In this document: positions 8,903-59,385 of the stretch, piece by piece | How the letters are laid out: the number at the start of each line of letters is the position of its first letter | How positions within the stretch are numbered: position 1 is the stretch's first letter | Assembly (NCBI GenBank): GCA_913055635.1 | Contig: CAJXLK010000006.1 | Span: forward strand, 1-64,000 | Reading direction: 5' to 3' | DNA length: 64,000 nucleotides | DNA from: an uncultured Bacteroidota bacterium | GTDB taxonomy: Bacteria; Bacteroidota; Bacteroidia; Bacteroidales; UBA12077 | Made by a program: the position numbers and the translations under genes | Notes under the pieces: model-generated | Databases searched by the model: none | The model's input: the letters and a program-made list of their open reading frames with translations, nothing else | Told to the model about the DNA's origin: nothing

Positions 8903-10003
8903 TCACTGTTTGGTTTCGATGATTTTTTCCAGGGCCTGAACGGTACGGGCGATGTCGAATTTTTTCTCCACAAAGTGGCGGGCCTGGCGCCCCATCTTTT
9001 CGCGGAGGTTTTGGTCGTGGTACAGCCGGATGATCTGGTCGGTCAGGGATTGGGTATCTTCGAACGGCACCAGGAAGCCGTTTTCGCCATTGCGGATCAG
9101 CTCGGGGTTGCTGGAGATGTTGAAGGCCATTACGGGTTTGCTGCTGGCCATGGCTTCGACGATGACATAACCGAAACCTTCCCACAGGGAGGTCAGCAGG
9201 AAGAGGTCGATCGAGTGCATGAAGCTTTTGATGTCGGAGATGAACCCGGTGAAGCGGATGTGCTGGTCGAGGCCTTCCTGTTGCACTTCTTTGCGGATGG
9301 ATTTTTCGAGCTTGCCTTCTCCGGCCAGCAGGATCTTAAAGGGTATATCGGCTTGGCGGAGTTTTCGGGCCACTTCGAGCAGGTAGCCGTGTCCTTTTTG
9401 TTCCACAAACCGGCCGGCGTTGCCCAGGACCAGCTCGCCGTTTTGTTTGTGGTAGATGGGTTGCACCGGCCGTCGGTCGAAAGCGTCAAAATCGATGCCG
9501 TTGTAGATGACGTGGATCTTCTGGGGATCCACCAGGTGGGGATTGCGCTCGAGCAGCAGTTTTTTGGTGGCTTCGGAGTTGGTCACCACGTCGGTCACCA
9601 CCCGCCGGAAAAGTTTCCGGTTGAAAAAGTTGTTGTGCACGGGCAGGGCGGTGCCGCGGCGGTAGATGATCTTGCCGACCCCGGCTTTGCGGGCGGCCAC
9701 ACCGGCCACCTTGGCATCGGAGGGCAGGTTCAGGATCACCGCTTCCGGCCGGTAACGCTCCAGCATCCGGCTTACCCGGTGTATCTTGAAGGGATTGACA
9801 AAGCTGTAGTTGTTGATGCCCACCGACTCATGCGGGAGGTTGTGTTCGCGGACCTTCGCCAGGAGCTCGCTGTTGTTGCCGACAAAAAAAACCACCCGGT
9901 GTCCCTTCTCCTTTAATCTCAGAGCCACATCCAGATGCCACTTCTCACCCCCGCCCCAGGCCGGGTTGGTGTTGAAAAAGGCTATGGTCTTTTGTGGGGC
10001 CAT
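8903..10003 (-). CDS. Glycosyltransferase, GT4-like (GT-B fold)
   Basis: About 366 residues. The N-terminal domain starts KTIAFFNTNPAWGGGEKWH, the family pattern for acceptor binding; the C-terminal nucleotide-sugar domain has NAGRFVEQKGHGYLLEVA and the EX7E motif EGFGYVIVE. It should transfer a sugar from a nucleotide donor to a lipid-linked or polysaccharide acceptor on the cytoplasmic face. The start is taken at MAPQKT because the four codons before it lie in the flanking palindromic-repeat DNA (in-frame alternative at 10015). It is downstream of an MsbA-like exporter and close to several sulfotransferases, suggesting one glycan pathway. The donor sugar cannot be told. Confidence 0.88.
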   Translation of the reverse strand: MAPQKTIAFFNTNPAWGGGEKWHLDVALRLKEKGHRVVFFVGNNSELLAKVREHNLPHESVGINNYSFVNPFKIHRVSRMLERYRPEAVILNLPSDAKVAGVAARKAGVGKIIYRRGTALPVHNNFFNRKLFRRVVTDVVTNSEATKKLLLERNPHLVDPQKIHVIYNGIDFDAFDRRPVQPIYHKQNGELVLGNAGRFVEQKGHGYLLEVARKLRQADIPFKILLAGEGKLEKSIRKEVQQEGLDQHIRFTGFISDIKSFMHSIDLFLLTSLWEGFGYVIVEAMASSKPVMAFNISSNPELIRNGENGFLVPFEDTQSLTDQIIRLYHDQNLREKMGRQARHFVEKKFDIARTVQALEKIIETKQ

Positions 10004-10014
10004 TCTATCATTCA

Positions 10015-10140
10015 ATCATTTCTTCATTATTCAATCCCCGCCTACGCTTCGCTTCGCCGGGGCAGGCATTCCATCATTTAATCATTCAATCCCCGCCTAC
10101 GTTTCACTTCGTCGGGGCAGGCATTCAATCATTTTATCAT
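10015..10140. repeat. REP-like palindrome, two copies
   Basis: Two about 50-bp copies of a unit with the arms CCCCG and CGGGG around a CTACGCTTCGCTTCG-like centre, flanked by ATTCAATCATT tracts (centres near 10049 and 10103). A third copy of the same unit occurs at 38353-38405, again in a gap between genes. In RNA each forms a hairpin. No associated transposase is in the window. Confidence 0.75.
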
Positions 10141-10144
10141 TTCC

Positions 10145-11968
10145 TCAGGAGAACATCTGCATCTCGTGCAGTTTTTTGTATATGCCGTCTTTTTGGATCA
10201 GCTGGTCGTGGTTGCCGGTTTCCCATATGCTGCCCTGGTGTAGTACCACGATCTTGTCGGCCTCGCGCACGGTCGACAACCGGTGGGCGATGATGATGGA
10301 GGTGCGGTTGTGCATCAGCCGGTAGAGGGCGTCCTGCACCAGTTTCTCCGATTCGGTGTCGAGCGAGCTGGTGGCCTCATCCAGTATCAGGATGGGCGGG
10401 TTTTTGAGGATGGCCCGGGCGATGCTCAGGCGCTGCTTCTGCCCGCCCGAGAGCTTGTTGCCCTGGTCGCCGATGTTCGTCTGGTACCCGTCAGCCAGCT
10501 CCTGGATGAAGGCATGGGCATTGGCCACCCGGGCGGCCTGCTCCACCTCCTCCATCGTGGCTTCATCCCGCCCGAAAGCAATGTTGTTGAATACCGTGTC
10601 GTTGAAAAGGATCGATTCCTGGCTGACCAGCCCGATCTGGGCCCGCAGATCCTTCACCTTTAAATCCTCCAGCGCCACACCGTCGATGCGGATCTGCCCC
10701 TCGTTGACATCATAGAAACGCGGCAAAAGGTTCACCAGGGTCGACTTGCCGGCACCCGACTGACCCACGATGGCCACGGTCTGGCCCTTGTCGATGTTCA
10801 GGTTCACCCCGCTCAGCACATTGTCCGTCTTGTAGCGGAATGTGACGTTGTCGTAAATGATCGTCTCGCGGAAAGTATCGAGCGGCCGGGCATCGGCCTT
10901 CTCCTGTATGGTCTCGTGGGCATGCAGCACCGTCTCGATGCGCTGGAACGAGGCCATGCCCTTTTTCATGTTGTAGTAAAAGTTCGACAGCACCTTCGAG
11001 GGCTGGATGATCTGGGAGAAGATCACCAGGTAGGTGATGAAGGCCTCGGGCGAGAGGGTGCTGCCCCCGCCGTTCAATACCTGGATGCCGCCGTACCACA
11101 TGATGATCACAATCACCGTGATCGAGAGGAACTCGCTGAAGGGATGGGCCAGCACCCGCTTGCGCAGGATCTTGTTCATGATGCGGGTGTACTTGTTGTT
11201 GCCCTTCTCAAAATTTCGGTTCACGCGGCTTTCGGCATTGAATGCCTTGATGATCCGCAGCCCGAAGATGGTCTCTTCCAGCATCGAGAGCAGCTCGCCC
11301 AGCTTGTTCTGGCCCTTGATGGAGGCCTTCTTTAGGTTCTTGCCCACCACGCTGATGCCATAGCCGCTCAACGGCAGCAGGATCAGCACGAAGAAGGTCA
11401 GCTTATAGCTCATCACGAACAGGGCCGTCACATAAATGATGATCTGGATGGGCGCTTTGATCGCCTTGCGCAGGGGCCGCAGCATCGTGTTGGCCACTTC
11501 CTGCACGTCGCCGGTGGCCTTCAGCAGGATGTCGCCCCGCTTCTCCTCCGAATAGTAAGCCACGGGCAGACGCAGGATCTTGCGGTAAATCTTGTTGCGG
11601 ATGTCACGGATCACCCCGTTGATCAACGGTACGATGGCGAAGTTCCCCAGGTAGTTGAACGAGTTCTTCAGCAACACCAGCCCGATCACGATCAGACTGA
11701 CCCACATCAGCGCCACCTCGGCCCCGCGCGTCTCAATCAGCTGGCTGACCAGGTAGTTGAAGTTGTGCTGGATGGCGTCGGCGTTGAGCTCAAAGGGCAC
11801 CGGCTCGGTTACCGGCGTCTTCTGGTCGAAAAGGATCTTCAGGAACGGAATGGTCATCATGAAGGAGAACAACGAAAAGAAGGTCCCCAGCAGATTCAGC
11901 AACACCCCGATAACGGCGTTTCTCCAGTAATGGACGATGTATCCCAGCAGTCGTTTGTATTCTTGCAT
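10145..11968 (-). CDS. MsbA-like ABC exporter (fused permease and ATPase)
   Basis: A 607-residue half-transporter. Six membrane helices lie in residues 15-330. The nucleotide-binding domain has Walker A GQSGAGKS (402-409), Q-loop Gln450, signature LSGGQ (506-510), Walker B ILILDEA (526-532) and the H-loop in IIIAHRLSTV. It acts as a dimer in the inner membrane. The family flips lipid A, glycolipids, peptides or drugs. Its place between two glycosyltransferases and the sulfotransferase genes suggests a glycolipid or oligosaccharide substrate, but it could equally be the lipid A flippase. Length is typical. Confidence 0.9.
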   Translation of the reverse strand: MQEYKRLLGYIVHYWRNAVIGVLLNLLGTFFSLFSFMMTIPFLKILFDQKTPVTEPVPFELNADAIQHNFNYLVSQLIETRGAEVALMWVSLIVIGLVLLKNSFNYLGNFAIVPLINGVIRDIRNKIYRKILRLPVAYYSEEKRGDILLKATGDVQEVANTMLRPLRKAIKAPIQIIIYVTALFVMSYKLTFFVLILLPLSGYGISVVGKNLKKASIKGQNKLGELLSMLEETIFGLRIIKAFNAESRVNRNFEKGNNKYTRIMNKILRKRVLAHPFSEFLSITVIVIIMWYGGIQVLNGGGSTLSPEAFITYLVIFSQIIQPSKVLSNFYYNMKKGMASFQRIETVLHAHETIQEKADARPLDTFRETIIYDNVTFRYKTDNVLSGVNLNIDKGQTVAIVGQSGAGKSTLVNLLPRFYDVNEGQIRIDGVALEDLKVKDLRAQIGLVSQESILFNDTVFNNIAFGRDEATMEEVEQAARVANAHAFIQELADGYQTNIGDQGNKLSGGQKQRLSIARAILKNPPILILDEATSSLDTESEKLVQDALYRLMHNRTSIIIAHRLSTVREADKIVVLHQGSIWETGNHDQLIQKDGIYKKLHEMQMFS

Positions 11969-12583
11969 CGCTAAATTTCAGTCGGTGTGATCAATTGTTT
12001 TTATCGCTTTGTTCGGATTGTTTCCCGTCGGTTTGCCATCTTATGGCGGGTTTCCCGGGCTGTGTCCTGCCTCTTCGGACTTTGTTCTACCTTCCTGGGT
12101 TTTGTCCTTCTGTTCCAGGCCGTGTACTACTGTTCCAGGCCGTGTACTACCGCTCAAGGCATTGGTCTTTTTGGCCGGGACCTTTTCTGAGCCCGTAGCT
12201 TTGCCTGTCCTGCCCGGGGCATTTCAGCTTTTTTGCCTTTTCAAACGGCCCCGAAAATGAATCGGGCTCAGCCGGCAAAGGTTATAAATTTTCTTTCACC
12301 TCGGCATGGGTTATTAAAATTTTCGTTGCCTTCTCTTTATGCTCCGGGCTTTGGTTTCTTTTTGGGGCTTGTCCGTTGATTTTTTCCGGTGAACCTGATG
12401 CAACCGGCCGTTCAAACGGCCCGGCCTTATTGTTTGCACCAGTGCACCTTATACAATATTCCGGTCCAATGCTTCGCTTCCATTATTTTCACCGGTGAAC
12501 CTGATGCCACTTGCAAGCGGATATCGCTTATATCTTTTTCGGGGCTTGTCCGGCGACTTTTTTTCCGGTGATCCCGGCCCACC
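11969..12583. repeat. 615-bp gap with degenerate direct repeats
   Basis: T- and C-rich DNA open in all plus frames but without protein character. Repeated pieces: CTGTTCCAGGCCGTGTACTA twice in tandem near 12113-12150; GGGGCTTGTCCG followed by TTTTTTCCGGTGA near 12364 and 12541; CCGGTGAACCTGATGC near 12388 and 12491. No gene is called. Confidence 0.65.
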
Positions 12584-13459
12584 TCACTCTTCAAAACGAT
12601 AACCCTTCAGAAAATCGTACGGGCCCATGCGTTGGTTCACCTCATCGATGGCCTGGCGGGGCCATTTGATTTTATGGCGGCTTTTGTGGCTGCTTTTGCG
12701 CACGATGCGCCCGGCATCCTCCAGGTAATCGCTGTAGGGCTCCACCCCGAGGAAGCGGCACATCCCGGCCAGGTATTTTTGGGGATACTCGATAAAGTCC
12801 TCATGCCGCAGCTCGTAGATTTGGTAGCTGTTCATGCTGCGGATGTGGTGGATGGCTTCCACCTCCCGGAAATGCCGGTCGATTTCGTTTTGGAGCATTT
12901 CGGGGTCTACCGGCTGGTCTTTGTCGTTGCCCCCACGAGCTCGGGTGGCGATGTTATCGAACGGGTTGCGGATGATGTGGATGATTTTGACGGGGATGCC
13001 GGTGGTTTGACGCAGCTGGTCGAGCCGTTCGGGATGATGGTATATCTCCCGGCTGGTACGTCCGCCCCTTTTGTCGCCGATGACCTTTAGCTCACGGAAC
13101 GATCCCTGCCACTGGCCCGGTACGCGGTAAGAGTAGCCCGACCACCGGTAGTTGAGGGTGGCAAACCATTTGTCACGACCGATCAGCTTTGCGTAAAGGT
13201 TCCGCCGGGAATGACCCCGCCGCAGGTATTTGAGCACATTGAGCTCATGGGCAATGCACATCTCCGGATGGGCATTCAGCAACGCCCCGATCAGGGTGTG
13301 CCCGCTGCGCGGATACCCCAAAAAAAGACAAAAAGCCCGCGGCTGATCCAGGTAACCGCGGTAACGCCAACCCAGGTAACCCACCATCAGCCGGGTGTAG
13401 AAAAAACGTACCAGCCTGCTGGTTTGCCTGAAGATCCATCTGTTGAGGTTTGACGCCAT
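12584..13459 (-). CDS. Sulfotransferase family protein (PAPS-dependent)
   Basis: A 291-residue protein with the PAPS 5'-phosphosulfate loop LGYPRSGHTLIGALL (residues 47-61) and the 3'-phosphate motif IIRNPFDNIATR (162-173). These are the two signatures of cytosolic and Golgi-type sulfotransferases, which move sulfate from PAPS to a hydroxyl or amine. A basic amphipathic N-terminus may hold it at the membrane. It is the first of four sulfotransferase-fold genes within 3.8 kb and lies near glycosyltransferases and an ABC exporter, so a surface glycan or glycolipid is the likely acceptor. The acceptor cannot be told from sequence. Confidence 0.85.
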   Translation of the reverse strand: MASNLNRWIFRQTSRLVRFFYTRLMVGYLGWRYRGYLDQPRAFCLFLGYPRSGHTLIGALLNAHPEMCIAHELNVLKYLRRGHSRRNLYAKLIGRDKWFATLNYRWSGYSYRVPGQWQGSFRELKVIGDKRGGRTSREIYHHPERLDQLRQTTGIPVKIIHIIRNPFDNIATRARGGNDKDQPVDPEMLQNEIDRHFREVEAIHHIRSMNSYQIYELRHEDFIEYPQKYLAGMCRFLGVEPYSDYLEDAGRIVRKSSHKSRHKIKWPRQAIDEVNQRMGPYDFLKGYRFEE

Positions 13460-13868
13460 TGATTCCCTGGTTGAAACACCCCTTTTATAAATTGTTGGAA
13501 GAGCCGTTTTTTCGTTGATTCATTGAAACCGCCTTTTGTTTCATTGAACCCGCCTTTTGATTTATTGTCTGAAAACAACCCTTATGTTTATGGCCTGAAA
13601 CTGCCCTTTTGATTTATTGTCTGAAAACAGCCCTTATGTTTATGGCCTGAAACCGCCCTTTTGTTTTATTCTTTGAAACAACTTCTTGATTTCTAGCTAA
13701 AATCAGCCCTTTTTAAATCCGGTTCTTCTGTTGATAGCACTTTTGGCTGCGATTTGTTTGTAGCCCGGCACTTTTTCATGGGCAAAGATAGGACAAAATC
13801 AGGTATAAAAGGCGCGGTGGGGTTGGATTTTGCCGGGGCTTTAAATAGGCCGGCCTGTAGCGCCTGGT
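13460..13868. repeat. 409-bp gap with a 52-bp degenerate tandem repeat
   Basis: The unit around TTTATTGTCTGAAAACA then CCTTATGTTTATGGCCTGAAA starts at about 13561 and again at 13613 (period 52). Shorter decayed forms (TTCATTGAAACCGCCTTTTG, TTCATTGAACCCGCCTTTTG) lie just before. No gene is seen. Confidence 0.75.
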
Positions 13869-14591
13869 TCAGTCATTTCGGCCGATGATGTTGTCGGATT
13901 CCATTGGGTAGCCAAAATGCTCAAAATCTTCGCGGTAGATCGATTCCACACGTTGCTTGGTCTCCAGGTCGTAATATTCCTGTATCCTGGCGCGGGTGGA
14001 GCGGTTCAGGTGCTTCAGTTCGGTCTCGGGCAGATTCAGTTTTTGCAGGATGGCGTTGAAATCCTCCTGGAGGTTTTCGAACGAGCCGCAGTAGTCGATG
14101 GAGAGCTTTTCGACCCAGCGCACCTGCGGGTTACAGGTGCTCATCTTGTGGGCATTGAACAGTCCGATGGGGGGAACCCCTTCTTCCTGGATAAGGCGTA
14201 CGAAGCGGAGGAAGGAGATGCCGCCTTTGAAGGAAGGCCGGAAATACTCGTAGAGCGAGATAGCCCGGTCATAGGGGTTGCGGGAAAAGCAGAATTTGAA
14301 AGCCTTCCGGTTGAAACTTTGCGAGATGTAGCCCTCCTCCACCAGCCGGGCATAATCGATGTGGCCGAAGGTGACCAGCCCCTGCTGATCAAACCGGTAT
14401 TTGACCCGGGCCAGCTTTTTGGCCTTCAGACAGCCCCGCCGCTTGAGCGTTTTGTACACGCTGGTGCCCGCATTCTTGGGGATCCATATGAATACCGCGT
14501 TGGGGTTGTTGCGGTTCTGCACACGATGCTTGAGCTTGCCCAGCCGCGTGTAATTCATCAGGTCTTTGCCGATATCTTCCAACCACTCCAT
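13869..14591 (-). CDS. Sulfotransferase family 2-like protein
   Basis: A 240-residue protein with the Sulfotransfer_2-type PAPS loop WIPKNAGTSVYKTL (residues 36-49) and the 3'-phosphate motif FSRNPYDRAISLYEYF (about 102-117), then FVRLIQEEG and a helical C-terminus. This subfamily includes carbohydrate sulfotransferases acting on glycans. The open frame continues 47 codons upstream through the hairpin repeats, but that part is repeat translation, so the start is set at MEWLEDIGKD; a -7 box lies 30 bases before it. It is divergent from the next sulfotransferase gene across the repeat cluster. Confidence 0.82.
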   Translation of the reverse strand: MEWLEDIGKDLMNYTRLGKLKHRVQNRNNPNAVFIWIPKNAGTSVYKTLKRRGCLKAKKLARVKYRFDQQGLVTFGHIDYARLVEEGYISQSFNRKAFKFCFSRNPYDRAISLYEYFRPSFKGGISFLRFVRLIQEEGVPPIGLFNAHKMSTCNPQVRWVEKLSIDYCGSFENLQEDFNAILQKLNLPETELKHLNRSTRARIQEYYDLETKQRVESIYREDFEHFGYPMESDNIIGRND

Positions 14592-14612
14592 GATGCCAAT
14601 ACAAGATTTTAT

Positions 14613-14628
14613 TACCTTTGCAAAGCTA
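14613..14628. promoter_or_regulatory. Back-to-back -7 boxes between divergent sulfotransferase genes
   Basis: TACCTTTG on the plus strand (14613-14620) abuts TAGCTTTG on the minus strand (14628-14621), both matching TAnnTTTG, so the site reads as a near-palindrome. The minus box suits the gene starting at 14591. The plus box would give a leader of about 170 bases containing four hairpin repeats before 14796. -33 elements are not evident. Confidence 0.4.
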
Positions 14629-14646
14629 ATAAAAATATATAACAGA

Positions 14647-14750
14647 CCCCGCTTAGCGGGGTCCGGAAAACTGACCACCCCGCTTAGCGGGGTCACTGGA
14701 AACCAACCCCCGCTTAGCGGGGTTCCGAACATTTACCCCGCTTAGCGGGG
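14647..14750. repeat. CCCCGCTTAGCGGGG hairpin repeat cluster, 4 copies
   Basis: Full copies at 14647-14661, 14678-14692, 14708-14722 and 14736-14750, spaced 28-31 bp, each followed by GTC or GTT. The unit folds to a 6-bp G/C stem with a 3-base loop on either strand. Five other clusters occur in this window. Confidence 0.95.
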
Positions 14751-14795
14751 TCCAGACAGGATACCAGACGGGATTTCAACCAAAACCTCAACTCC

Positions 14796-15557
14796 ATGAA
14801 CCAACTCTTTGCCACCCTCAAGCAGGGAATAAGAAAGCGCTACAACAGGAATTTCGGACCCTACCGCGATGTGGTGGTCGTCTCCTACCCCAAATCCGGT
14901 CGCACCTGGCTGAGGGTGATGCTCAACGACCTGAACATCGTACCCACTTACTCCCACGACGGCACCCAGCACGGACTGGCTACCCCGCACCACCAACTGT
15001 CCACCGACAAATCACCTTTTCAAAACAACCGCGTGGTGTTCATGGTACGCGATCCCCGCGACACCGTGGTCTCCGCCTACTTCCAGGTCACCAAACGCCA
15101 CCAAACGTTTGACGGTTCGCTGTCTGATTTCATCCGCGACGAACGCTTCGGCATCGAAAAGATCCTGCGCTTCCACCAGATATGGCACGAAAACCGCAGC
15201 GTGCCCAATGATTTTACGGTGGTCCGCTACGAGGACCTCCACGAAGCCCCGCTCAAAACCATGCGCAGCCTGATGGATTTCCTGGGCAGGAAGAATGCCA
15301 CCGACCAGAAGCTGCAAGGCGTGATCGATTTTTACCAGTTCAACAACATGCAGAAACTTGAGCGGGAAGGATATTTTAAAAAGACCTTCAAGGGTGTTTT
15401 AGCCCCCAAGGATGCCAACGACCCCAACACCTACAAGACCCGCAAGGGCAAAGTGGGCGGTTACCGAGAAAACATGAGCGGGGAGGATGCCGCTTTCTGC
15501 CGCGAAATCATGCAAAACCGCCCCAATCCATTCTATCCTATTCCGGCTTCTTATTGA
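14796..15557 (+). CDS. Sulfotransferase domain protein (Sulfotransfer_1 type)
   Basis: A 253-residue protein with the classic PAPS-binding loop YPKSGRTWLRVML (31-43), the 3'-phosphate motif VRDPRDTVVSAYFQ (84-97) and the C-terminal RKGKVGGYRENMS segment, equivalent to the RKGxxGdW motif of cytosolic sulfotransferases. All core elements are present and the length is near the family norm. It is the only plus-strand gene in the first 25 kb. Its 3' end overlaps the convergent sulfotransferase-like gene by 20 bp. Acceptor unknown; a glycan or lipid is inferred from the neighbours. Confidence 0.88.
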   Translation: MNQLFATLKQGIRKRYNRNFGPYRDVVVVSYPKSGRTWLRVMLNDLNIVPTYSHDGTQHGLATPHHQLSTDKSPFQNNRVVFMVRDPRDTVVSAYFQVTKRHQTFDGSLSDFIRDERFGIEKILRFHQIWHENRSVPNDFTVVRYEDLHEAPLKTMRSLMDFLGRKNATDQKLQGVIDFYQFNNMQKLEREGYFKKTFKGVLAPKDANDPNTYKTRKGKVGGYRENMSGEDAAFCREIMQNRPNPFYPIPASY

Positions 15558-16404
15558 ACAGCAGTTCGCGTTGCTGGGAAGCATAGTCGATGCATTTCTG
15601 CCAGTCGTCGAGGTAGGCGTGATCGATCTCCTTCAGTTTATCCTGCGGAATGAGCGGGCGGTTGCTGGCCCATTTCTCCGGGAAAAATTGTGCGAAAAAG
15701 GCGATTGAGTGCAGCAGCAGTCCGCTGAATTTTTTGTAGGTGAACTTAACCGCCTTGTTGCGGATCCCCGAATGGTCGTACTGGTAAAAGCGGTTGAAGC
15801 GCCTTACCATCCTCAGTTGCCTGGGATTGTACGATTTTTTTACCGTTTGCACCCGGATGTCATTGCGGTTGTATTCGGCCCCCATGTAATCGGCCAGCAT
15901 ATCGATCACACCATAAGGGTTTTGCTTGAGTTCCTCCTGGAAAAGCACCAGGGGTCGGTGTTGGAACTGTTCCTCGAGGAATTTGATCTTGGGGAAGAAA
16001 AGCAGGTTGTCGGTGCCCAGGACCCCGTTGCCGTTTAGGTCAAAATAGCCGTTGAAATCGCGGTCGCCGTGCTTCCGCAGGTAGTACTTGTATTTGCTCT
16101 GCAGCCACCGGGTGTGTTTGCGAAGCACGATGATGGGGTAGGTGTGGGGGTATTTGGCCGCCACATCTTTCACCTTGCCGATGCCCCCGCTGTGATCCAG
16201 GCTCAGCTCAATGGACAGCAGCACCCGTTCGGCGCCACCCTGGCCAATCAGCTGGTCGCGCCGCTTGAAATCATGCTTTTTGATGAAGCGGATGCCACGG
16301 AATTTGGGGAAAACATTCCGCTGCAAAAACGTGGAGGCCGTCTTGGGCAACCCCACATGAAAAAATATGGTCTTGTCGCTTCGCTGTTGCTGGCTTTGAT
16401 TCAT
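15538..16404 (-). CDS. Sulfotransferase-like protein
   Basis: A 288-residue protein with the PAPS-loop-like HVGLPKTASTFLQ (residues 16-28) and a weaker 3'-phosphate segment VLRKHTRWLQSKYKYYL (93-109). The overall layout matches the gene at 25826-26662: both have PKFRGIRF or PKLKGVHY after the loop, then VLFQEELKQNP or ILFHDELKKDP, and a DDWQKC ending, so the two are paralogues. Arg replaces the usual RNP/RDP context, so activity is less certain than for its neighbours. It converges with, and overlaps by 20 bp, the plus-strand sulfotransferase. Confidence 0.75.
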   Translation of the reverse strand: MNQSQQQRSDKTIFFHVGLPKTASTFLQRNVFPKFRGIRFIKKHDFKRRDQLIGQGGAERVLLSIELSLDHSGGIGKVKDVAAKYPHTYPIIVLRKHTRWLQSKYKYYLRKHGDRDFNGYFDLNGNGVLGTDNLLFFPKIKFLEEQFQHRPLVLFQEELKQNPYGVIDMLADYMGAEYNRNDIRVQTVKKSYNPRQLRMVRRFNRFYQYDHSGIRNKAVKFTYKKFSGLLLHSIAFFAQFFPEKWASNRPLIPQDKLKEIDHAYLDDWQKCIDYASQQRELLFNKKPE

Positions 16405-16568: not shown

Positions 16569-17666
16569 TTAACCCTGCGCCACCTCCTCGTAGAGCGCCT
16601 TCATTTGCTGTACGGTATGGTTAATGTGGAAGTTATTGGCGATGTGCCGGCGGGCGGCCACGCCCATTTGCTTTTTCTTTTCCGGATGATTCCTGAGGAA
16701 GCGAATGGCTTCGGCAATTTGCCCGGGCGATTTGGGCTGAACCAGCATCCCGGTTTGTTTGTTGATCACCAGTTCCGGGTTGCCGCCGATGGAGGTGGCT
16801 ATTACTGGCAGACCGGTGCTCATGGCTTCCACGGTAACCTTCGACAGGCCCTCTCCGCGGATAGATGGCAGGGCCAGGGCATCGCAGATGCTCAGGTGGT
16901 TGAGCACATCGTTTTGATGGCCCAGCAGATGGAAATTCTTGCGCAGGGGCGATTGCCCAATCAGCTTCATGTGTTCGGGGGTGTCCATGTTCCGGCCGAT
17001 CAGCATGAAGTGGATGTTGCTGTCCCCTTGCAGTTGGTGGGAAGCCTTTATCAGGTAAGGGATGCCTTTCATGGGCCGTGCATTGGCCACACAACCTACC
17101 ACAAAAGCATCATCGGGAATGCCGAATTGTTCGCGGCGGTATGGCTCCACTTCACCGTACCAACCCGGGTCATGCCCCTTGTAGACCGTTACCGCCCTGT
17201 CTTTGTGGAATAAGAGCTGGCGGCGCACCTGCTTTTCCACTCCCTGCGACACACACGTGATGCGCCTGACCCGGGGGTTGAGGTGGCCCAGGTGCGCGGT
17301 GGGCTTATACCACACCAGGTGCCCGGTGTAACCGCGGTAGGTCATGATCCTGACCGGCAGGCCCAAAGAGGCCATGACCGTGTTGACCACCGCCCGGTTG
17401 TTGAAAACATGCACGATGTCGTATTGCCCCTGCCGGAGGATGCTGCGGATATGACGGATCTCCTTCAGGCTGAACTTGCGCTCCGGCTTGTAAGGATGGA
17501 TATGAATGCCGGCCTCCTGGAAACGCCCTATGTAAGGACCGCGGGGAGGCGTCATCACATCCAGGTCGATCCCGGCCTGCTTCAGCTGCAGGACCATCTC
17601 CGCCTCGGGCCGCACGGCAACCTTCGAGCCGGCGTAGGAACTTATAACAAGCACTTTGGGGGCCAT
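16569..17666 (-). CDS. Glycosyltransferase, GT4-like
   Basis: A 365-residue GT-B glycosyltransferase. The N-terminal domain (KVLVISSYAGSKVAVRPEAE; YDIVHVFNNRAVVNTVMASL) binds the acceptor. The C-terminal domain has GCVANARPMKGIPYLIKAS and the family EX7E motif in GEGLSKVTVEAMSTGLPVI. No membrane segment. It is on the same strand as, and just upstream of, the sulfotransferase-like gene, so sugar transfer and sulfation may act on one product. Donor and acceptor cannot be told. Confidence 0.87.
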   Translation of the reverse strand: MAPKVLVISSYAGSKVAVRPEAEMVLQLKQAGIDLDVMTPPRGPYIGRFQEAGIHIHPYKPERKFSLKEIRHIRSILRQGQYDIVHVFNNRAVVNTVMASLGLPVRIMTYRGYTGHLVWYKPTAHLGHLNPRVRRITCVSQGVEKQVRRQLLFHKDRAVTVYKGHDPGWYGEVEPYRREQFGIPDDAFVVGCVANARPMKGIPYLIKASHQLQGDSNIHFMLIGRNMDTPEHMKLIGQSPLRKNFHLLGHQNDVLNHLSICDALALPSIRGEGLSKVTVEAMSTGLPVIATSIGGNPELVINKQTGMLVQPKSPGQIAEAIRFLRNHPEKKKQMGVAARRHIANNFHINHTVQQMKALYEEVAQG

Positions 17667-18050
17667 ATCTACTGGGTCATGATCAGGGGGGCAAAGATAA
17701 ATAAAATTATTTGCCAGGTTGACCTGTCTTTCAAACAGGGGTTGCCCTTTCCATTATATATGGATTGGCCTGTCGCTCAAATGTGTATTGCCCCGTCCAT
17801 TAAACATGGGTTGCCGTGTCTTTCAATCATGGGTCGGTAAACATCGTTTGTGCTATCCCTTAAACAGGGGTTGTCCTTTTCATTATATATGGATTGGCCT
17901 GTCGCTCAAACAGGGCTGGCTTTCCACTTTGTACATGGGTCAATTGTGTGCGCTGCTGCACGTACGCATCACAGGCATTCCCCAAATGCAGGTTTCTTTT
18001 GATTTTGTTATCTTTTGGTGGATTTGGAGGTCAGTTCTGCCCCTACGGGT
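17667..18050. repeat. 384-bp gap with a 129-bp imperfect repeat
   Basis: AAACAGGGGTTG followed by CATTATATATGGATTGGCC and TGTCGCTCAAA occurs at about 17733 and again at about 17862. Shorter related pieces (CCATTAAACATGGGTTGCC, TTTCAATCATGGG) lie between them. No gene is seen. Confidence 0.7.
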
Positions 18051-25825: not shown

Positions 25826-26662
25826 ATGCAGCAAGGCGACCGATCTTTTGAATTATATTGCCATGTGGGATTGGGCAAGACCGCATCAACCTATCTTCAG
25901 TACCGCTTTTTCCCGAAACTTAAAGGGGTGCATTACATACAGCGCACCAAATACCGGCATTTTGAGAAGATTGTAGATCAGGGGAGGCACTCGAAATATC
26001 TGGTATCGAGGGAGTTTGATCGGCAGTTTGAACGGGAGGTCCGGCGCATTGCCCGCAATTATCCCGATGCCGGAATCATCATTGTGCTCAGGCGGCACGA
26101 CAGCTGGATTGCTTCACAGTACAGGCGGTATGTGAAAAACGGGGGAACCGAACCCTTTGAGAATTTCCTGGACTTACAGCACGACAATGGTTTATGGGAA
26201 CAAAAGGATGTTTATTTCCACCCCAAGCTGAAGCTCCTCGACGAGCTGTTCAGACGTAAGCCGCTGATCCTGTTTCATGATGAACTTAAGAAGGATCCGT
26301 GGACCTTTTTCGACCGCATTGCCGAATACATTGGCGCCACATATGACCGCAACCGCATTGTGGTCAACCCGTCTCATAAATCGTACACGGAGAAGCAGCT
26401 GAAGATCCTTCGGCGGGTTTCGCGGCGGTTGTTTCCACGGGGATGGAAAGGATCCAAAAACCGCATCCGCCATTACATCCGCTTTCGCTCGCGGTGGCTG
26501 TTGCTGCACCTGATCCTCTATGCTGCGGCCCTGATGCCAAAGAGCCGTGCCGGTGATGAGCCGCTGATACCTACCCGCCAACTTGAACAAGTGCGCGAAC
26601 ATTTTAAGGACGACTGGCAAAAATGCCTGCAGCATGCCGGTGAAAATGGCGCCGGGGGATGA
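25826..26662 (+). CDS. Sulfotransferase-like protein, paralogue of 15538-16404
   Basis: A 278-residue protein with the PAPS-loop-like HVGLGKTASTYLQ (13-25) and a later VLRRHDSWIASQYRRYV segment at the 3'-phosphate position. It shares its whole layout with the gene at 15.5-16.4 kb (PKLKGVHYIQ; ILFHDELKKDPW; ending DDWQKCLQHAGE). A G replaces P in the usual xPK(T/S) loop. The downstream flank is repeat DNA, and it is transcribed away from the metal-cofactor set, so it is probably an outlying member of the sulfation genes. Confidence 0.75.
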   Translation: MQQGDRSFELYCHVGLGKTASTYLQYRFFPKLKGVHYIQRTKYRHFEKIVDQGRHSKYLVSREFDRQFEREVRRIARNYPDAGIIIVLRRHDSWIASQYRRYVKNGGTEPFENFLDLQHDNGLWEQKDVYFHPKLKLLDELFRRKPLILFHDELKKDPWTFFDRIAEYIGATYDRNRIVVNPSHKSYTEKQLKILRRVSRRLFPRGWKGSKNRIRHYIRFRSRWLLLHLILYAAALMPKSRAGDEPLIPTRQLEQVREHFKDDWQKCLQHAGENGAGG

Positions 26663-28411: not shown

Positions 28412-28523
28412 CCCCGCTTAGCGGGGTCGAAATTTTTACCCCCGCTACCCCGCTAAGCGGGGTCAGTAAGATGCATTATCACCCCGCTAAGCGGGGTTGA
28501 AATATTACCCCCGCTAAGCGGGG
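28412..28523. repeat. CCCCGCTTAGCGGGG hairpin repeat cluster, 4 copies
   Basis: Copies at 28412-28426, 28448-28462, 28482-28496 and 28509-28523; the first has a TTA centre, the others TAA, so both orientations occur. A half-site CCCCGCTA precedes the second copy. The cluster ends 45 bp before the sppA start. Confidence 0.95.
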
Positions 28524-40162: not shown

Positions 40163-40373
40163 CTACCCCCGCTTATCTACCCCCGCTTATCTACCCCCGC
40201 TTATCTACCCCCGCTTAGCGGGGTCATATCGCCAAAACCCACCCCGCTTAGCGGGGTCTTGACCGGAGACCACCCCGCTAAGCGGGGTCTTAAATCCACC
40301 CCGCTAAGCGGGGGTTATACCGTGATCTTACCCCGCTAAGCGGGGTCTGATAAATCCACCCCGCTAAGCGGGG
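40163..40373. repeat. CCCCGCTTAGCGGGG hairpin cluster, 6 full copies plus tandem half-sites
   Basis: Begins with three tandem 16-bp half-units (CTACCCCCGCTTAT), then six full palindromes from 40209-40223 to 40359-40373, two with a TTA centre and four with TAA. The tandem half-sites suggest growth by slippage. The remainder of the gap 40054-40522 holds promoters for the flanking genes. Confidence 0.95.
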
Positions 40374-52191: not shown

Positions 52192-52815
52192 ATGCAAGCG
52201 CAAAACGAGTATCAGCAATTGATTGATAAAGTTACCCAGCTCTACGAGCAGTACGGCATTAAGAGCGTAACGATGGATGATGTGGCCAGGGAACTGGGAA
52301 TCTCCAAAAAAACCCTGTACAATTATGTTTCCAACAAGGAGGACCTGGTGAACCATTACATTGACCACATTACCACCCAGCGCAACTGCAGTGTCGATGA
52401 GATCCGTGAAAAGGGGTATAATGCCATTGAGGAGTTCTTTGCCGTCAACCAGCATGTGATCGACATGCTCAAGCATTATAACCCGGCCACTGAGTATGAT
52501 CTGAAGAAGTACTACCCGCAGCATTATCAACGTTTGCGGCAGGTGAGGCGGGAAAACATGTTTTCAGCCGTTAAACGGAACATTCAGAAGGGGAAAGAGG
52601 AAGGGCTATACCGGCAGGATTTGGATGAAGACATCATTGCCCGGGTGCATGTCAGCCGGATAGAGAATAGCTTTGCCAATGAGATGTTTGATATATCTGA
52701 ATTGATTTCCTGGCAGTTCATCCGGGAAATGATGGTTTATCACATGCGGGGCATTGCCACCGAAAAGGGGCTTGAATTTTTTTACCGCCTGCTGCAGGAA
52801 TATGACCCCGCTTAG
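52192..52815 (+). CDS. TetR/AcrR-family transcriptional regulator
   Basis: A 207-residue repressor: N-terminal helix-turn-helix at about 25-48 (VTMDDVARELGISKKTLYNY), then an all-helical ligand domain. It is first in a plus-strand run with TolC, adaptor and RND pump genes, so it presumably senses a pump substrate and represses its own operon. The stop codon and the last codons (Asp-Pro-Ala-stop) lie inside the first CCCCGCTTAGCGGGG repeat of the cluster that follows, so repeat DNA defines the C-terminus. Confidence 0.92.
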   Translation: MQAQNEYQQLIDKVTQLYEQYGIKSVTMDDVARELGISKKTLYNYVSNKEDLVNHYIDHITTQRNCSVDEIREKGYNAIEEFFAVNQHVIDMLKHYNPATEYDLKKYYPQHYQRLRQVRRENMFSAVKRNIQKGKEEGLYRQDLDEDIIARVHVSRIENSFANEMFDISELISWQFIREMMVYHMRGIATEKGLEFFYRLLQEYDPA

Positions 52816-52911
52816 CGGGGTCGGAGAAAAAACAACCCCGCTTAGCGGGGTCGGAGAAAGAATACCCCGCTTAGCGGGGTCTGCCTCGAATAAACACCCC
52901 GCTAAGCGGGG
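52806..52911. repeat. CCCCGCTTAGCGGGG hairpin cluster, 4 copies, between tetR and the TolC gene
   Basis: Copies at 52806-52820, 52836-52850, 52865-52879 and 52897-52911, with duplicated linkers GGGTCGGAGAAA and GTCTGCCTCGAA. In the transcript each is a 6-bp GC stem with a UUA or UAA loop, placed at an operon junction. Confidence 0.95.
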
Positions 52912-54398: not shown

Positions 54399-54488
54399 GA
54401 CCCCGTTAAACCCGACCCCGCTAAGCGGGGGTTGAATCTGGGACCCCGCTAAGCGGGGGTTGACTCTGGCAGACCCCGCTAAGCGGGG
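54399..54488. repeat. CCCCGCTAAGCGGGG hairpin cluster, 3 copies, between the TolC and adaptor genes
   Basis: Copies at 54416-54430, 54444-54458 and 54474-54488, all TAA-centred, preceded by decayed forms (CCCCGTTAAA). The cluster starts about 6 bp after the TolC stop. Confidence 0.95.
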
Positions 54489-59189: not shown

Positions 59190-59385
59190 CCCCCTAAGCA
59201 CCCCCGCTTAACGGGGGTAGATCATCCCGCTAGCGGGGTCAGCACCCGTTTATCCCGCTTCAGCTTGCCCCCGCTTAGCGGGGTCGAATCGAGGCGGTTC
59301 AGCCGACCCGGTTCAGCCCACCCCGCTTAGCGGGGTCGAAAATACCCCGCTTAGCGGGGTCAAGCGGGGTCATTAAGCGGGGTGA
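59190..59385. repeat. CCCCGCTTAGCGGGG hairpin cluster, 3 full and several decayed copies
   Basis: Full copies at 59269-59283, 59321-59335 and 59345-59359; decayed forms include CCCCGCTTAACGGGGG near 59202 and CAAGCGGGG near 59362. It begins a few bases after the RND permease stop. Confidence 0.93.

Follow-up and report, generated by a model that had tools for sequence, protein, structure and literature searches.

Genes at the locus

The window analysed here is a 64,000-nucleotide stretch (positions 1 to 64,000 of contig CAJXLK010000006.1, assembly GCA_913055635.1) from an uncultured Bacteroidales bacterium of the GTDB lineage UBA12077. It carries four sulfotransferase-fold genes side by side (ST1 to ST4), flanked by two family 4 glycosyltransferases (GT4a and GT4b) and an MsbA-type ATP-binding cassette (ABC) exporter. 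A fifth sulfotransferase-fold gene, ST5, lies at 25.8 kb (Table 1). A preliminary description of the sequence had listed these genes and the kinship of the fourth and fifth, and all are present as described; ST4 and ST5 share 36-37% identity. Hereafter, G000 is the window's own genome, G001 to G004 are congeners and L-numbers denote individual loci.

Table 1 Genes of the sulfotransferase cluster and palindromic repeat clusters in the window
Feature	Coordinates	Strand	Assignment
GT4a	8903..10015	-	family 4 glycosyltransferase; Pfam Glycos_transf_1 1e-42
MsbA-type ABC exporter	10145..11968	-	TIGR02203, 508 bits
ST1	12584..13459	-	sulfotransferase; Pfam Sulfotransfer_3 1.4e-14
ST2	13869..14732	-	sulfotransferase; Pfam Sulfotransfer_2 6.9e-12; likely start 14591
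ST3	14796..15557	+	sulfotransferase; Pfam Sulfotransfer_1 7.6e-23
ST4	15538..16404	-	sulfotransferase fold; no Pfam match
GT4b	16569..17666	-	family 4 glycosyltransferase; Pfam Glycos_transf_1 3e-33
ST5	25826..26662	+	ST4 paralogue; weak Sulfotransfer_3 4.4e-4, below cut-off
CCCCGCTTAGCGGGG clusters	14647-14750, 28412-28523, 40209-40373, 52806-52911, 54416-54488, 59202-59359

All five proteins contain the 5'-phosphosulfate loop of 3'-phosphoadenosine 5'-phosphosulfate (PAPS) enzymes, from which the first four genes had originally been recognized, together with the 3'-phosphate motif R-x7-S/T at the canonical spacing of 8. ST1 is a variant in both, with T replacing the S of R-x7-S and R replacing the K of the loop. 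The fold is identified by Pfam for ST1 to ST3, by AlphaFold and Foldseek for ST4 and by alignment to ST4 for ST5. Fold and PAPS motifs together support ST1 to ST5 as sulfotransferases, with sulfuryl transfer as their predicted activity. Three subtypes had been proposed, but Pfam separates four kinds: Sulfotransfer_3, Sulfotransfer_2, Sulfotransfer_1 and one without a match. The last is ST4, which matches no Pfam family and so stays below the cut-offs of Sulfotransfer_1, 2 and 3, while ST5 scores 21 bits against a Sulfotransfer_3 cut-off of 27. The listed ST2 reading frame is probably 47 residues too long, since those first 47 codons cross a cluster of palindromic repeats (14647-14750), and translation more likely begins with MEWLED at 14591. 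The ST3 and ST4 genes are convergent and overlap by 20 bp.

The earlier remark that such clusters are uncommon was fair: Sulfotransfer_1 was matched in just two of 14 control genomes, and Sulfotransfer_3 likewise in two. G000 holds about 14 sulfotransferase-fold genes. Given 14 among approximately 3500 genes, a total assumed from the size of the genome, 9e-7 runs of four adjacent sulfotransferase genes are expected, which rules out chance clustering. Among the genes at 8.9-17.7 kb none encodes Wzx, Wzy, a polysaccharide co-polymerase (PCP) or a capsule ABC transporter. Elsewhere in G000, a second sulfotransferase cluster (L045 on contig C31, 6722-12595) comprises two sulfotransferases, a third weak one, glycosyltransferases and a Wzx-type flippase.

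The ST4/ST5 family

Structure prediction of the PAPS sites had been suggested as a check. For ST4 the AlphaFold model, built from an alignment of 13 homologues, has a mean pLDDT (predicted local distance difference test) of 89.9 and a pTM (predicted template modelling score) of 0.85. Its best Foldseek matches in the Protein Data Bank (PDB) are PAPS sulfotransferases (E 9e-5, probability 1.00), with template modelling (TM) scores of only ~0.3-0.5. ST4 therefore shares the core fold common to PAPS sulfotransferases, while much of the remainder differs. Searching PDB sequences with a profile found SULT1A1 at 3e-4. Across 86 homologues of ST4 and ST5, K21 is present in 82 and replaced by R in the remaining four, and E66, R95 and S103 are each present in every one. 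E66 is a candidate catalytic base.

Relatives of ST4 and ST5 occur in Bacteroidota, Gammaproteobacteria, Campylobacterota, Calditrichota and Neomarinimicrobiota. Less certain are single matches in Rickettsiales, Desulfobacterales, Atribacteria and one Thermoplasmata archaeon, which stem from metagenome-assembled contigs. In a quick tree the ST4 clade consists of Bacteroidales only (8 tree rows; Shimodaira-Hasegawa-like approximate likelihood ratio test, SH-aLRT, 99). ST5 falls outside this clade, in a broad group of the family tree.

Conservation of the cluster

A core of the MsbA-type exporter, GT4a, GT4b, ST3, ST4 and ST5 is conserved in G001 and G004. Both genomes retain the order SerS, GT4a, ABC exporter, ST3, ST4 at 58-78% identity, to which G004 adds GT4b and ST5. 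Orthologues of GT4a are 59-60% identical in these two genomes and 46% in the more distant G037, those of GT4b 62-67% (G001, G002 and G004), those of ST3 61-64% (G001 and G004) and those of ST5 63-73% among the congeners. G002 keeps ST4, GT4b and ST5 to the extent that its short contigs allow, with ST4, GT4b and ST1 together on a 4-kb contig. G003 is without the exporter and ST4, probably owing to an assembly gap. ST1 and ST2 are far less widespread: among 59 relatives searched, ST1 has an orthologue solely in G002 and ST2 has none. In G004, ST5 directly adjoins GT4b, whereas an island of about 8 kb with MinD/NifX/DUF134-type genes separates the two in the window and in G001. Because of this adjacency we count ST5 as part of the cluster.

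Related arrangements extend beyond the genus. Two Salinivirgaceae loci (L105 and L107) have an MsbA-type gene adjoining ST4 and ST5 or one gene away from them, and in L108/L162 an ST4-clade gene adjoins GT4a. A Neomarinimicrobiota locus (L111) groups an MsbA-type ABC gene, two GT4 genes, one family 2 glycosyltransferase (GT2) and an ST5-type gene with three further sulfotransferases, and in Marivirga (L120) an ST5-type gene stands among four glycosyltransferases. G037, from a different family of the order, has four ST4/ST5-family genes within 7 kb (L049, 7722-14294), along with GT2, GT4 and an O-antigen ligase-type gene. L162, from a relative of G037, shares this gene content.

Exporter and PAPS supply

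The ABC exporter is the sole match at E<=1e-80 in G000. It was found in 37 of 39 genomes searched and is orthologous across nearly the whole order. Its best NCBIfam family is MsbA_lipidA. Of five congeneric genomes, four, among them G000, encode a Kdo (3-deoxy-D-manno-octulosonic acid) transferase; the fifth genome is 57% complete. Since it is single in G000, order-wide, closest to MsbA_lipidA and accompanied by a Kdo transferase, the exporter is probably responsible for flipping lipid A, and its cargo is probably what the cluster decorates.

As already noted in the preliminary description, the window's open reading frames, as far as they were examined, include no gene for PAPS synthesis. A search of the genome, proposed there as a check, gave a mixed picture. 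G001 to G003 and G037 encode a protein of 626-650 residues with an adjoining CysH-like gene, and in G003 Pfam resolves an ATP sulfurylase (Sat) fused to adenosine 5'-phosphosulfate (APS) kinase plus a PAPS reductase domain. A lack of PAPS synthesis, which the preliminary description had named as a refutation, does not apply to these congeners. G000 has only the last 97 residues of this fusion, on contig C42, and no CysN. Downstream of the break C42 is syntenic with G002 and G003, and upstream it is not: the fragment ends where about 1.5 kb without congener synteny begins, holding an unrelated B12-binding/radical S-adenosylmethionine (SAM)-like gene. An assembly chimera is the likeliest explanation of the cut gene. 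The lone 3' fragment and the missing CysN would suggest a G000 devoid of PAPS synthesis, a reading that we rejected as unlikely given the congener fusions and the chimeric-looking contig end; a real deletion of the Sat-APS kinase gene keeps a low probability. Foreign-looking genes occupy two contig ends of G000, radical-SAM/B12-type in C42 1-1500 (L001/L003) and membrane transporter-type in C24 1-1900 (L044), suggesting chimeric contig ends.

Proposed function and alternatives

We propose, at a probability of roughly 0.45, that the cluster is a lipooligosaccharide (LOS) sulfation locus, in which the LOS core would be sulfated in the cytosol before export by the MsbA-type exporter. GT4a and GT4b would extend a lipid-anchored oligosaccharide, probably lipid A-core, with sugars on the cytosolic side of the inner membrane. 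Sulfuryl groups from PAPS would be placed on different hydroxyls by cytosolic sulfotransferases, three of them conserved (ST3, ST4 and ST5) and two lineage-specific (ST1 and ST2), after which the single MsbA-type exporter would flip the sulfated lipid. PAPS would be supplied by a bifunctional ATP sulfurylase-APS kinase encoded elsewhere in the genome. We infer the substrate, the order of these steps and the joint action of the five enzymes in one pathway. Because the exporter is single in the genome and orthologous order-wide, and neither Wzx nor Wzy is encoded at 8.9-17.7 kb, we favour the LOS core, or a glycolipid flipped by the same protein, over a capsule. Of the sulfated glycan or lipid product suggested previously, the association of the sulfotransferases with glycosyltransferases and exporter holds up, the arrangement being kept in congeners, but nothing points to a sphingolipid. 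A broader proposal appears somewhat doubtful: the ST4 clade would comprise dedicated LOS-core sulfotransferases and the msbA locus a multi-enzyme LOS sulfation system, with sulfate providing the core's anionic groups or taking their place, perhaps in saline habitats.

Several observations weigh against LOS sulfation, which as a reading of gene sequences draws on the Bacteroidales clade plus a handful of neighbours. The cluster is no operon, with genes on mixed strands and gaps of 400-600 bp. The exporter scores 508 bits against a curated TIGR02203 cut-off of 602, which is why we term it only MsbA-type, and around its orthologues in 16 relatives from sister genera we found no homologue of the window sulfotransferases. 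An intact PAPS gene is missing from the G000 assembly. Across 79 public loci of the ST4/ST5 family, genes for glycosyltransferases are not clearly more frequent close by than further away (24/392 near genes versus 15/310 far genes); the lack of a general enrichment around the family limits inference from gene context. Finally, an ST5-type gene of Acidiferrobacteraceae stands among non-glycan genes. In L158 and other gammaproteobacterial loci this gene consistently follows a DsbA-like gene, has transport-type genes close by and lacks glycan genes in its surroundings. What the profiles label MSBA there is a transporter ATP-binding subunit of ~355 residues and no exporter, and was left uncounted.

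The sulfotransferases might instead act on another envelope glycan, such as a capsule, an exopolysaccharide (EPS) or an O-antigen unit assembled on a lipid carrier, the proximity to the msbA-type gene being incidental or due to pooling of envelope genes. Capsule or EPS is the product of the known clusters with multiple sulfotransferases, GDP-fucose synthesis genes and an UpxY-type antiterminator lie at the left end of the window, and the related G037 cluster and the second G000 cluster contain the O-antigen ligase-type and Wzx-type genes mentioned above. We nevertheless consider this unlikely, as the cluster itself is without Wzx, Wzy or capsule ABC genes and the association with the exporter recurs in congeners, Salinivirgaceae and Neomarinimicrobiota. 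A separate sulfated glycolipid, not based on lipid A and flipped by the same exporter, would, if small, fit a locus whose only glycosyltransferases are two GT4 enzymes and whose exporter is of the lipid flippase class; sulfated glycolipids are known from other bacteria. It seems distinctly unlikely, since the exporter is single-copy and present order-wide without these sulfotransferases, so that lipid A-core is more likely to be what it mainly carries, and no gene for synthesis of a lipid backbone was seen in the cluster. It is improbable that some or all of the proteins use the fold otherwise, on small molecules or after loss of activity, and were brought together by gene duplication and exchange. 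The scattered taxonomy and varied gene surroundings of the ST4/ST5 family, the patchiness of ST1 and ST2 even among congeners and a Bacteroides sulfotransferase acting on cholesterol would agree with this, but the PAPS-site residues are near-invariant in the 86 homologues and the glycosyltransferase and exporter partners are conserved within the genus.

Comparison with known systems

Several sulfotransferases in one surface glycan cluster are already known; this locus is set apart by its member of the ST4 clade and by its association with an MsbA-type exporter. The xss cluster for synechan in Synechocystis 6803 likewise contains sulfotransferases of distinct subfamilies (PMC8205485). It has two, with export by Wzx/Wzy/PCP, whereas the window has up to five and an MsbA-type exporter and, lacking Wzx, Wzy and PCP, does not belong to this type. 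The synechan authors knew of no sulfotransferases in other bacterial EPS clusters and connect cyanobacterial sulfotransferases with saline habitats (PMC8205485). The capsule locus of Vibrio sp. KMM 8419 resembles ours in combining multiple sulfotransferases, three in its case, with glycosyltransferases and ABC export (PMC11641403). Its sulfated product has been demonstrated chemically, and it differs in its capsule ABC transporter and in having PAPS genes inside the cluster.

The Clr-regulated smb21237-21249 cluster of Sinorhizobium meliloti contains three sulfotransferases, and LpsS is a sulfotransferase acting on lipopolysaccharide (LPS) (PMC5498481, citing Cronan and Keating 2004). PAPS-dependent LPS sulfation and several sulfotransferases in one surface polysaccharide cluster are the points of likeness; S. 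meliloti is an alphaproteobacterium, unlike the Bacteroidales host of the window, and LpsS is likened by function, not sequence. BT_0416 of Bacteroides thetaiotaomicron, a PAPS-dependent sulfotransferase of Bacteroidales likened here by description rather than sequence, sulfates cholesterol and adjoins its PAPS genes (PMC9417993). It thus differs in its sterol acceptor and in the PAPS genes alongside, and the window is no locus of that type: what is left of the APS kinase gene sits on a different contig, apart from the sulfotransferases. Our literature search returned no report of sulfotransferases clustered with msbA, nothing direct on sulfated LOS in Bacteroidota, and LPS sulfation in rhizobia only.

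Conserved sulfotransferases at a Bacteroidales msbA-type locus would offer a concrete set of genes for testing LOS sulfation in Bacteroidota. They also draw attention to a sulfotransferase family that Pfam misses (ST4) or under-scores (ST5), though it occurs in Bacteroidota, Gammaproteobacteria, Campylobacterota and others.

Repeats in the window

The palindrome CCCCGCTTAGCGGGG occurs 25 times in the window, one copy with a mismatch, against 0.26 expected by chance. The copies form six clusters of 3-6 (Table 1), are mostly 25-35 bp apart and are apparently intergenic. None was present in the examined loci of other genomes, congeners included; elsewhere in G000, nine copies lie in L044 and one in L008. 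Degenerate tandem repeats also fill intergenic gaps at 17719-17938, 13515-13690 and 12380-12595, with periods of 23, 26 and ~53 bp and a sequence that differs from gap to gap.

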